Assembly (NCBI GenBank): GCA_018658305.1
Contig: JABHVM010000030.1
Location: forward strand, 1-55,238
Reading direction: 5' to 3'
DNA: 55,238 nt
Origin: Thiotrichales bacterium
Lineage (GTDB): Bacteria > Pseudomonadota > Gammaproteobacteria > GCF-002020875
Numbering within the stretch: position 1 is the first letter of the stretch; the number at the start of each line of letters is the position of its first letter. Under the pieces are notes generated by a model. That model did no database searches and was not told where the DNA came from. It worked only from the letters and a program-made list of their open reading frames with translations. Positions 7,444 through 49,740 of the stretch are shown one piece after another. The position numbers and the translations under genes are program-made.

Positions 7444-7480
7444 AAGTATCTACTGTTGAGTATTAAATATTTAGTTGTTG

Positions 7481-7598
7481 GTAACTATTCTCACCTCTAA
7501 AATTCACCATCTCTGCGTTACAAAATCTTCATATACACCTGTATACTCAAATTTTGCGCCTTGATCTGATGAATTTTAGAGGCAATCTGAACAGTTAC
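7481..7598. repeat. Palindromic MITE-like element, copy 1
   Basis: This 118-bp element begins GTAACTATTC and ends GAACAGTTAC. The outer ~31 bp on each side are imperfect inverted repeats sharing CTAAAATTCA. The same sequence recurs at 38176-38317 and, in opposite orientation, at 48832-48952. Copy 1 is flanked by AGTTGTTG (7473-7480) and AATTGTTG (7599-7606), a 7-of-8 direct repeat consistent with an aged 8-bp target-site duplication. It encodes no protein. It lies between the Rieske gene and leuC, both on the minus strand, so it could fold in their shared RNA. Confidence 0.88.
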
Positions 7599-7616
7599 AA
7601 TTGTTGATTTTAACAT

Positions 7617-15781: not shown

Positions 15782-15801
15782 TATAGTTCTGAGCGTTAAC
15801 T

Positions 15802-15840
15802 AAAAAAGCACTGATTGGATATCCAATCAGTGCTTTTTTA
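15802..15840 (+). terminator. Perfect rho-independent terminator (bidirectional)
   Basis: GCACTGATTGGAT (15808-15820) is followed directly by its exact reverse complement (15821-15833), flanked by six A on one side and six T on the other. It can end both the 53-residue protein transcript and the convergent slyD transcript. Confidence 0.93.
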
Positions 15841-15879
15841 GTTACTAACTTTAGCTGCTAATTTTATTTGATTACCGCA

Positions 15880-36144: not shown

Positions 36145-37311
36145 ATGAATCTGCATGAGTACCAAGCAAAAGAGCTATTCCGTAAAGTTGGGATCCCCAC
36201 CCCTAATGGGGAGGTGGTTATAGATAGTGATAGCGTAGAGGTGGTTGCTAAAGATATTGGGGGTAATGCTTGGGTTGCTAAAGCACAAGTCCATGCTGGT
36301 GGACGAGGTAAAGGTGGTGGAGTTAAGATCTCTACAAGTATAGATGATCTGGTTGCTGCTACCAATCAGATGCTTGGCAACACCCTAATCACTCCTCAGA
36401 CTCACGGACGCGGACTACCAATCAATAGCGTACTGATCGAAGAGACTCTTGATATAGAGCGAGAGTTATACCTTGGCGCACTAGTTGATCGTGATCAAGA
36501 GAAGATTGTCTATATGGCATCTAGTGCTGGGGGAATGGATATTGAGCAGGTTGCGGCAGAGACTCCTGAAAAAATTGTAACTGTACATGCTGATCCTGCA
36601 GCTGGATTACAAGCCTACCAGTGCCGTCAACTAGCATTCGGTTTGGGGTTAGAGGGAAAACAGATTAGTGCATTAACAAAAATTGTTACTGGACTACATC
36701 GTCTATTTACCCATAACGACCTAAGTTTAGTTGAGATTAATCCTCTAATTATTACCGCAGATGGTGAGTTAGTAGCTCTGGATGCGAAGATAAATATAGA
36801 TGATAATGCTCTCTACCGTCACCCTAAACTCAAGGATCTCCACGATCCATCTCAGGAAGATGCAGCAGAACTTGAAGCGAGCAAGCACGAACTAAACTAC
36901 ATAACCCTTGATGGAAATATTGGTTGCATGGTGAATGGTGCTGGACTTGCAATGGCGACTATGGATCTAATTAAATTACAGGGAGGCGAGCCTGCAAACT
37001 TTCTTGATGTTGGTGGTGGTACTACTGCAGAAAGAGTTGCAGTGGCATTTAAGCTAATATTAAGTGACTCTAAGGTTAAAGCTATCTTGGTAAATATCTT
37101 TGGCGGTATCGTGCGTTGCGACCTTATTGCTGAGGGAATTATAAGTGCTATCCAAGAGGTTGGGGTAGATATTCCAGTGGTAGTTAGACTTGAGGGCACT
37201 AACGCTCCGCAAGGGATGGCGCTTCTTAAAAGTAGCGGGCTAAATATTGATGTTGAAGATACATTAACTGGCGCTGCTAAAAAGGCAGTAGAGAAAGGAG
37301 CTCAAGCATGA
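36145..37311 (+). CDS. sucC: Succinyl-CoA synthetase beta subunit (ADP-forming)
   Basis: SucC binds succinate and nucleotide in the TCA-cycle step that makes ATP from succinyl-CoA. The 388-residue ATP-grasp protein starts [20 protein letters not shown] and carries [17 protein letters not shown] near residue 45, VEINPLI near residue 195 and [16 protein letters not shown] near residue 315. It overlaps sucD by 4 bp (ATGA). It follows napG by 98 bp, with TATAAT at 36103-36108 as a possible promoter -10 element. Confidence 0.97.
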
Positions 37312-38198
37312 GTATATTAATTAACAAAGAAACTCGGGTAATTGTGCAGGGCTTTACTGGAAAACAGGGTACTTTTCATGCAGAGCAGTCTATCGCCTAT
37401 GGAACTAACATTGTAGGTGGAGTAACTCCTGGCAAGGGTGGACAGAGCCACCTTGAACTCCCTGTATTCAACACTGTAGCTGATGCAGTTGCAGATACTG
37501 GCGCTGACGCAACTATGATCTATGTCCCTGCCCCATTTGCTGCAGATGCTATTTTTGAAGCGGCGTCAGCTGGGATCAAAACCATAGTATGTATTACTGA
37601 AGGGATACCTGTACAGGAGATGATTAAAGTTAAAGCATTCTTAAAAGATTTTCCTGAGACTAGACTTATTGGGCCAAACTGTCCAGGCATCATCACCCCT
37701 GGGGCTTGCAAAATTGGAATTATGCCAGGCAATATTCATCAAGAGGGGAAGATTGGTATCGTCTCTCGTTCAGGAACCCTCACCTATGAGGCTGTATTCC
37801 AAACAACCAATGCAGGACTAGGTCAATCCACCTGTATCGGTATCGGAGGAGACCCTATCCACGGGATGAACTTCATCGACTGTCTAGAGCTGTTTCAACA
37901 AGATGAGCAGACTAAGGGCATTGTATTGGTCGGGGAAATTGGCGGAAGCAAAGAGGAAGAGGCTGCAGAGTATATTCGCAACCATGTAACCAAACCAGTA
38001 GTAGCATATATTGCAGGAGTAACAGCTCCAGCAGGACGCAGAATGGGGCATGCTGGAGCAATCATCTCTGGTGGTAAAGGCACTGCTGAAGATAAAATTA
38101 CAGCACTAGAAGCCGCTGGAGTGACCGTATCTCGCTCCCCTGCTGAGATAGGTGAAAATATGGCAGAGCTTCTTAGTAACTATTCAGCTCCCCCCTAA
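37308..38198 (+). CDS. sucD: Succinyl-CoA synthetase alpha subunit
   Basis: The 296-residue protein has [15 protein letters not shown] at the N-terminus, the [11 protein letters not shown] segment and the phosphorylated active-site histidine in [15 protein letters not shown] (near residue 247). The C-terminal residues SNYSAPP and the stop codon are encoded by the left end of palindromic element copy 2, which begins at 38176. The tail therefore differs from a normal SucD end, and insertion of the element appears to have replaced the original terminus without disturbing the core. Confidence 0.97.
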
Positions 38199-38317
38199 AA
38201 TTCACCATCTCTGCGTAGCACGACCTCGTTCCTCGGTTGCAAAATCATCATATACACCTGTATACTCAAATTTTGCGCCTTGATCTGATGAATTTTAGAG
38301 GCAATCTGAACAGTTAC
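38176..38317. repeat. Palindromic MITE-like element, copy 2 (with internal insert)
   Basis: This 142-bp copy matches copies 1 and 3 from GTAACTATTCAG to GAACAGTTAC. It differs by about 22 extra bases near 38216-38237 in the left arm. The left end lies inside the last codons of sucD. No flanking direct repeat was found. A near-perfect inverted copy of the inserted segment sits just outside the right end at 38321-38344. It lies between convergent sucD and the 38355 gene and may act as a terminator-like hairpin. Confidence 0.88.
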
Positions 38318-38344
38318 AAATGCAACCGAGGAACGAGGTTGCTA
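38216..38344. repeat. Nested inverted repeat around element copy 2
   Basis: A segment at 38216-38241 containing CCTCGTTCCTCGGTTGCA recurs as its reverse complement at 38321-38344 (TGCAACCGAGGAACGAGG), with only a 2-bp difference over about 24 bp. It forms long stems across the inner part of the element and is absent from copies 1 and 3. Confidence 0.85.
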
Positions 38345-45556: not shown

Positions 45557-45632
45557 AGCTTATCTCCCTTAAAAATATCTTTCTCTAATTTATCTTATTA
45601 AAGCAATTGTAACTATTCAGTTATAACACTAA

Positions 45633-48820: not shown

Positions 48821-48831
48821 GACTACTATTT

Positions 48832-48952
48832 GTAACTGTTCATATTGCCTCTAAAATTCATCAGATCAAGGTACAAAATTTGAGCATATATTTATATATG
48901 ATAATTTTGCAACGCAGAGATGGTGAATTTTAGGGGTGAGCTGAATAGTTAC
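48832..48952. repeat. Palindromic MITE-like element, copy 3 (inverted)
   Basis: This 121-bp copy is in the opposite orientation to copies 1 and 2, beginning GTAACTGTTC and ending GAATAGTTAC. It is flanked by TACTATTT (48824-48831) and GACTATTT (48953-48960), a 7-of-8 direct repeat. The right-hand flanking repeat contains the znuB stop codon. It lies between the convergent flhB-like gene and znuB. Confidence 0.9.
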
Positions 48953-48954
48953 GA

Positions 48955-49740
48955 CTATTTTTTATGAGTAAATAACGACATAAAGAAAAGTGTAACTGCG
49001 CTAACCACAATCGAAGGGCCTGTTGGAGTGTTTAACCACATAGATAGATTCAATCCAGCAACCACAGATACTCCTCCCACCATAACTGCAACTGCAGCCA
49101 TCCGCTCTGGAGTATTACTAAATTGACGCGCGGTTACTGCAGGGATTATCAATAGAGCAGTCACTAGCAACATTCCAATCATCTTCATTGCTAAAGCCAC
49201 TACCACAGCTATCAACACCATAAATATCAGCTCCACCCTTACTACTGGCACTCCTTCAGCCTGCGCTAACTCTCTATCCACAGTTAGAGCAAGTAGAGGA
49301 CGCCATATTATAAAGAGAATTGAAAGTACTATAGCACCGCCGCCATATATCCAGAGTAGATCTTCTACTCCTATAGCGAGTAGATCACCAAATAGATAAC
49401 TCATAAGATCAATCTGCAACCAACTTATCATACTTATAACTAATACTCCAAGCGCTAAGGAGGCGTGAGAGAGGGTTCCCAATACAGCGTCACTAGTCAA
49501 CTCTCTACGCTTCTGGAGTAGAAACAGGAGGAGTGCGATAGATATTGCCACCATCAATACTCCTAAAGTAATATTGACTCCTAGTAGAAAACCTAGCGCC
49601 ACTCCGAGCAGAGCTGAGTGTGACATTGTGTCCCCAAGATATGACATCCTCTTCCAGACCACGAAACAGCCGAGAGGTCCGCTGACTATAATTAAGCCTA
49701 CCCCACCTAAAATTGCCCGCCAGAAGAAATCATCTAACAT
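48955..49740 (-). CDS. znuB: Zinc ABC transporter permease
   Basis: ZnuB forms the membrane channel for zinc import. The 261-residue protein has about eight helices and the family motifs GPLGCFVVWKRMSYLGDTMSHSALLGVALG near residue 20 and MLLVTALLIIPAVTARQFSNTPERM near residue 190. It overlaps the znuC stop by 7 bp. Its stop codon abuts element copy 3. Confidence 0.95.
   Translation of the reverse strand: MLDDFFWRAILGGVGLIIVSGPLGCFVVWKRMSYLGDTMSHSALLGVALGFLLGVNITLGVLMVAISIALLLFLLQKRRELTSDAVLGTLSHASLALGVLVISMISWLQIDLMSYLFGDLLAIGVEDLLWIYGGGAIVLSILFIIWRPLLALTVDRELAQAEGVPVVRVELIFMVLIAVVVALAMKMIGMLLVTALLIIPAVTARQFSNTPERMAAVAVMVGGVSVVAGLNLSMWLNTPTGPSIVVSAVTLFFMSLFTHKK

Follow-up and report, generated by a model that had tools for sequence, protein, structure and literature searches.

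The hallmarks of IS66 insertion sequences are GTAA ends and target duplications of 8 bp. REP/RAYT systems combine a palindrome of 20–40 bp, tagged with GTAG/CGTC, with a Y1 transposase, and integron attC sites lie in tandem cassette arrays beside an integrase. Among described bacterial MITEs, MITEPsy1, which has 4-bp duplications (CTAG/YTAA), has been assigned to an IS5-type element (PMC3189936). The ERIC element duplicates TA and its transfer mechanism has not been elucidated (PMC2759123), and in published work Vibrio is its most distant host (PMC2759123, PMC2229807). How ERIC moves and what purpose it serves have been open questions for 30 years, and the element is used worldwide for strain typing.

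The family described here was followed up from three copies in the window, i.e. the whole stretch of 55,238 nucleotides that was analysed. Taken together, it is with high probability best explained as a MITE moved by IS66, whose core is probably related to ERIC and which may have a role in the 3'-UTR.

Copies in the window and in its genome

An earlier note on this DNA had described one sequence in three copies, the third reversed, all beginning with GTAACT and ending with AGTTAC. All were recovered exactly as described (Table 1), and the 7-of-8 repeats flanking copies 1 and 3 were reproduced. The 142-bp length of copy 2 is due to 21 extra bases inside it; this copy begins within the 3' end of sucD (ORF 37308–38198), whose final residues (roughly SNYSAPP) and stop codon are encoded by the element. 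Copy 3 has its left end 2 bp past the stop codon of an ABC-3 transporter gene (48955–49740, minus strand), whose orientation it shares. A solitary IS66-type end is probably a remnant. Separately, a perfect 24-bp inverted repeat with no spacer (TAACTAAAAAAGCACTGATTGGAT / ATCCAATCAGTGCTTTTTTAGTTA), probably a terminator, was observed at 15797–15844.

Table 1 Features of the element family in the window
Feature	Position	Strand	Details
Copy 1	7481..7598	+	118 bp; 3-bp deletion near left end; 96% to consensus; right end is inner CTGAACAGTTAC, tail absent
Copy 1, left 8-bp target duplication	7473..7480	+	AGTTGTTG
Copy 1, right 8-bp target duplication	7599..7606	+	AATTGTTG; 7/8 match to AGTTGTTG
Copy 2	38176..38317	+	142 bp; target duplication absent (2/8)
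Insert in copy 2	38217..38237	+	21 bp; AGCACGACCTCGTTCCTCGGT
Inverted counterpart of copy 2 insert	38322..38342	+	GCAACCGAGGAACGAGGTTGC; immediately 3' of copy 2
Solitary IS66-type end, core absent	45609..45620	+	GTAACTATTCAG; intergenic
Copy 3	48832..48952	-	121 bp
Copy 3, right-end 8-bp target duplication	48824..48831	+	TACTATTT on plus strand; 7/8 match to GACTATTT
Copy 3, left-end 8-bp target duplication	48953..48960	+	GACTATTT on plus strand

The assembly of the window genome comprises 1.65 Mb in 96 contigs. Compared with the named records of a plasmid collection, its SucC is nearest to those of Legionella, Aeromonas, E. coli and Klebsiella (58–59%), so that it likely belongs to a gammaproteobacterium. 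Searching the assembly with the 121-bp consensus gave 40 matches. As split copies and echoes on the opposite strand count individually among these, they correspond to about 28 places. About 21 of these are near full length, and 20 near-complete copies have E values from 4e-51 to 1e-34, with fragments besides; the expectation that many copies would exist in the genome was thereby borne out. The copies are short (118–142 bp), non-coding, and bounded by terminal inverted repeats (GTAACTATTCAG/CTGAAYAGTTAC), and duplicate 8 bp of target, as MITEs do.

The boundaries drawn in the earlier note hold for copies without a tail. About half of the copies in the window genome, and most of those in other genomes, carry instead a second, outer GTAACTATTCAG-type end located 14–49 bp beyond AGTTAC (usually 31 bp, and 20 bp in the window genome), and in such copies the 8-bp duplication sits outside this second end, CTGAATAGTTAC, which is thus the true right end. 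Among copies with a duplication of at least 7/8, the tail lengths (number of copies, the events not all being independent) are 0 (9), 14 (1), 20–21 (8), 31–33 (27), 42 (1) and 49 (1) bp. The sequence of the tail is variable and its length clusters near two, three and four helical turns, from which we infer that both right ends are transposase sites presented on the same face of the helix.

The duplications were tested on 71 copies that have IS66-type ends and come from 18 genomes. Of these, 31 show a perfect duplication and 16 one at 7/8, that is 47 of 71, while swapping the right flanks among copies (400 trials) gave a mean of 0.125 and a maximum of 2. The copies of the window genome contribute 11 of 21 at this level, and perfect duplications in genome G014 include attggttg, aattcttc, caaaatag, tagagaac and gccaggct. 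The view that these are transposed non-autonomous elements with 8-bp duplications was therefore upheld. Long imperfect palindromes between genes could also be attC sites, REP/RAYT palindromes or intrinsic terminators taken for transposons; given these duplications, we attach hardly any probability to this. The copies are moreover single and dispersed between unrelated genes, with no cassette arrays, their 121 bp far exceed the length of a REP, and no Rfam family reached its gathering score when the window was scanned. Both attC and REP/RAYT identities were rejected on the basis of the duplications together with, respectively, the dispersion and the length.

Several copies carry inserts. One insertion point lies after CTGCGT in the core, where inserts of 21, 29, 42 and 21 bp occur in the window genome (window 38217–38237; loci L027, L028 and L024). 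They are built of CGACCTCGT/TCCTCGGTT-like units and are mostly multiples of 7, as if grown by heptanucleotide repeats. The tip of the hairpin is a second such point (L019 and L022/L027 in the window genome, L071 and L074 in G005), with inserts reading CTCGATGCCCTTTAGGGTGCA in the window genome and ACTACGAGCTATGCTCGCG... in G005, so that the tip tolerates insertion. A further copy in the window genome (C4:11523–11711 and C34:1–234) has a long insert in the tail region carrying a REP-like palindrome, CATTCCCACGCAGGAGCGTGGGAATGAGG; contigs C4 and C34 seem to overlap.

A probable IS66 partner with the same ends

A single match to the IS66 transposase profile (PF03050) was found in the window genome (C69:23–211, 46.9 bits, above the cut-off), which covers the last 63 profile positions and is located at the contig edge. 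The right end of this IS66, GTAACTATTCAGGACTCAG on the reverse strand, lies 127 bp past the match, and the corresponding left end, GTAACTATTCAGGACTGAAA, is found near the end of contig C28. An identical octet, TTTTCATC, adjoins the two ends, and C69 and C28 therefore most likely flank one IS66 insertion with an 8-bp duplication, the adjacency of the contigs being deduced from the octet. Two further contigs of the genome begin with the same right end. The transposase partner envisaged in the earlier note, sharing the terminal repeat of the family, is thus present in the same genome with 12 identical bp, the insertion sequence being known from its C69 and C28 ends rather than as a whole.

The ends read differently in other genomes. 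In G001 and G005, IS ends at contig edges read GTAACTATTCAGGGG, and in G014 the IS end at a contig edge reads GTAACTACTCAGCGC, the MITEs of that genome also reading GTAACTACTCAG. MITE and IS ends thus co-vary. In 11 other carriers, no matching ends were found within the stretches examined around IS66 genes, including intact ones in several of them, the matching IS ends lying at contig edges. This is expected if a single type of IS66 is the partner, yet it limits the proof. PF03050 gave no match in G316, G014 and G207, although these genomes carry copies. The literature yielded no IS66-derived family in a search on IS66 and MITEs, and only unrelated primer-type matches for the end sequences. 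The statement that no named family has these ends was only partly accurate: the GTAA ends and 8-bp duplications are those typical of IS66, and kinship of the core with ERIC is probable (see below).

From the shared ends and duplications, mobilisation of the family by IS66 is very likely. The palindrome of about 121 bp bounded by GTAACTATTCAG-type ends is best seen as a miniature non-autonomous transposon, on either right end of which the IS66 transposase would act in trans. Beyond the 12-bp end, comparison of the MITE interior with about 140–340 bp of the IS ends gave no match, and a core derived by deletion from the IS66 of the window genome was rejected, the similarity stopping at that point. 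Another multicopy element was observed in G014 (L098, L102 and L106), in which the GTAACTACTCAG end is followed by CGCCCCAGCCCGCTGCGCGGGCACACACCGAAAAGTAACG; it is possibly a second family mobilised by IS66.

Structure and distribution of the core

The earlier note had given the copies imperfect terminal inverted repeats of about 31 bp. The palindromic character is real, but it is not confined to 31 bp, as nearly the whole 121 bp forms one imperfect palindrome. The inner parts are conserved as had been noticed: the core aligns free of gaps, bar one 3-bp deletion, over the genus of the window genome, G014 (which belongs to another family) and a Nitrosomonas MAG. The most conserved parts are unpaired blocks, namely AGCTCACC, CTGCGTT, CGCCTTGA and GGCAATCTGA, and the tip of the hairpin reads TCA-yUUAC-nnnn-GUAAr-CUC. 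In the RNAalifold structure, 95% of cells are paired and both sides have changed in 14 of the 41 pairs. Covariation scores 0.248, compared with 0.127 for shuffled data (0/500); sliding the partners gave no more than 0.10. Part of such covariation in a palindrome could be accounted for by templated correction from arm to arm instead of selection. The Rfam scan of the relatives gave only weak, chance-like matches of miRNA precursors to long hairpins.

Related genomes, which the earlier note had proposed to search, contain the core widely: of 369 genomes of the same class, 55 match the covariance model R1 and 71 the inner-core model R2, i.e. the core is present in about 15–20% of those sampled. 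Phylum-wide, R2 matches 78 of 398 genomes, including family f207 of a second class, whose copies have IS66-type ends and tails as in the window family. Not all copies lie within such ends. In genus g58 (G062 and G198) the core is embedded in longer elements, about 158 bp in size, whose ends read GGGCACCTCTATTAATT and which are flanked on both sides by 4-bp duplications (TTAA, TATA or ATAT), and one copy in G104 is enclosed by ends of this type. Palindromes of 34–38 bp with GGGCACCTCTATT ends, in which the core is absent, were also observed in G062 (C20:50799–50836, C22:80305–80338 and C7:35544–35577), and are either an empty form or the origin of the 158-bp elements.

Copies behind stop codons

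Of the 21 copies in the window genome, 8 begin between -4 and +5 nt from the stop codon of a gene in sense orientation, and the remaining ones occupy varied intergenic sites. Placement is strict in family f137, represented by two genomes of one genus (G141 and G348), where 25 of 28 copies lie in sense behind a gene and start between -4 and +4 nt from its stop codon. Judging by the C-termini, we take these genes to encode GroEL, EF-Ts, EF-Tu, Ffh, GrpE, FabF and others. The duplication test found no duplication in any of the 22 f137 copies submitted to it. Over 13 copies of 121 nt, compensation is two-sided in 26 of the 40 pairs of the RNAalifold structure, often with at least three pair types. 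Between the orthologous copies L235 and L222, nearly every stem differs; both nevertheless fold, at -23.6 and -44.5 kcal/mol, and keep the unpaired blocks. Templated correction between the arms is a rival explanation for this compensation that needs no selection; it should, however, likewise erase the conserved mismatched blocks, and these persist. The f137 copies are apparently domesticated 3'-UTR hairpins. This branch, like the second outer end and the wide distribution, had been overlooked in the earlier note.

The post-stop positions in the window genome and in f137, the missing duplications of f137 and the stems of L235/L222, rewritten yet complementary, would also suit an element that selection maintains primarily as a structured RNA or 3'-UTR regulator and whose mobility is secondary or extinct. 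We regard this as improbable for the family as a whole, since clear duplications and IS66 ends are found in most genomes, that of the window included, and many copies are located upstream of genes or otherwise oriented. For the IS66-moved MITE that we prefer, a function of the hairpin in the 3'-UTR is nonetheless somewhat favoured by the fold and the positions: once transcribed, the hairpin may be an element protecting or processing the 3' end of the mRNA. Such a role would explain both the retention of copies right after stop codons and the domestication in f137.

Probable relation to ERIC

The R2 model, which is free of ERIC sequences, was applied to 53 kb of E. coli sequence (a 50-kb stretch of K-12 and one further ERIC locus). 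Its two best matches (E 0.039 and 0.14) are the only two ERICs present, aligned in register. Conversely, model R3, built from ten ERICs only, was searched over 93 kb around 34 family loci, and 21 of its 26 matches are family elements, including the best 13. All of them are on the family strand. The best E value of this test is 3e-4, and single cross-matches with ERIC are weak in both directions. The restriction to one strand, although a palindrome offers both, together with the ranking of the ERICs by R2, argues for common ancestry. Shared ancestry of the core and ERIC is thus probable as judged from the sequence models, which point to a common asymmetric core sequence and structure; the window element and ERIC would derive from one palindromic core that used different transposon ends.

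An ordinary IS66-derived MITE, i.e. an arbitrary palindrome with neither a link to ERIC nor a cellular function, spread over classes by recent horizontal transfer, would account for part of these observations: IS66 fully explains the ends and duplications, and near-identical copies inside single genomes (G014, G216 and G316) indicate recent bursts. We consider it unlikely, as it leaves aside the interior, which is of fixed length and conserved over many families with compensated stems, the other ends in genus g58, the strict post-stop position in f137 and the strand-specific matches of the ERIC model.

Comparison with known systems

The aspects that go beyond an IS66 MITE, and are new, are the recurrence of the core in two classes, the link to ERIC, the alternative ends in g58 and the domestication in f137. 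We propose a mobile ERIC superfamily, with IS66 as the mobiliser in the branch of the window. A broader reading, which we put forward tentatively as one possibility, is that a single core, with ERIC as its enterobacterial branch, occurs in at least two proteobacterial classes and repeatedly adopts different transposon ends because its hairpin is an mRNA 3'-end element that is tolerated or used; in one lineage it would have become a fixed RNA element that follows the stop codons of genes such as groEL, tuf, tsf, ffh and grpE. A relative of ERIC whose transposase partner can be identified, whose duplications are clean and which includes a strongly covarying, domesticated branch makes both questions about ERIC testable in laboratory strains.

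With IS66 insertion sequences, the family shares the 12-bp ends of the IS66 in the window genome and the 8-bp duplication. It differs from them in having no coding capacity, an interior that does not resemble the sequenced IS66 ends and, often, two tandem right ends. As in MITEPsy1 and other bacterial MITEs, the elements are about 100 bp long, non-coding, provided with IS-like ends and, most likely, moved in trans; a covarying core is not reported for MITEPsy1 in the part of its description considered here (PMC3189936). The features in common with ERIC (IRU, RU-1; 127 bp) are the length class, the imperfect palindrome spanning the whole element, the TCA-yUUAC-n4-GUAAr-CUC tip with its GCGTT and CGCCTT flanks, the intergenic and 3' positions and the mutual matches of the covariance models. 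The outer stems are different, and where ERIC has TA ends and a TA duplication, the window family has the GTAAC ends of IS66 and duplicates 8 bp: it is probably related to ERIC, but is no member of it.
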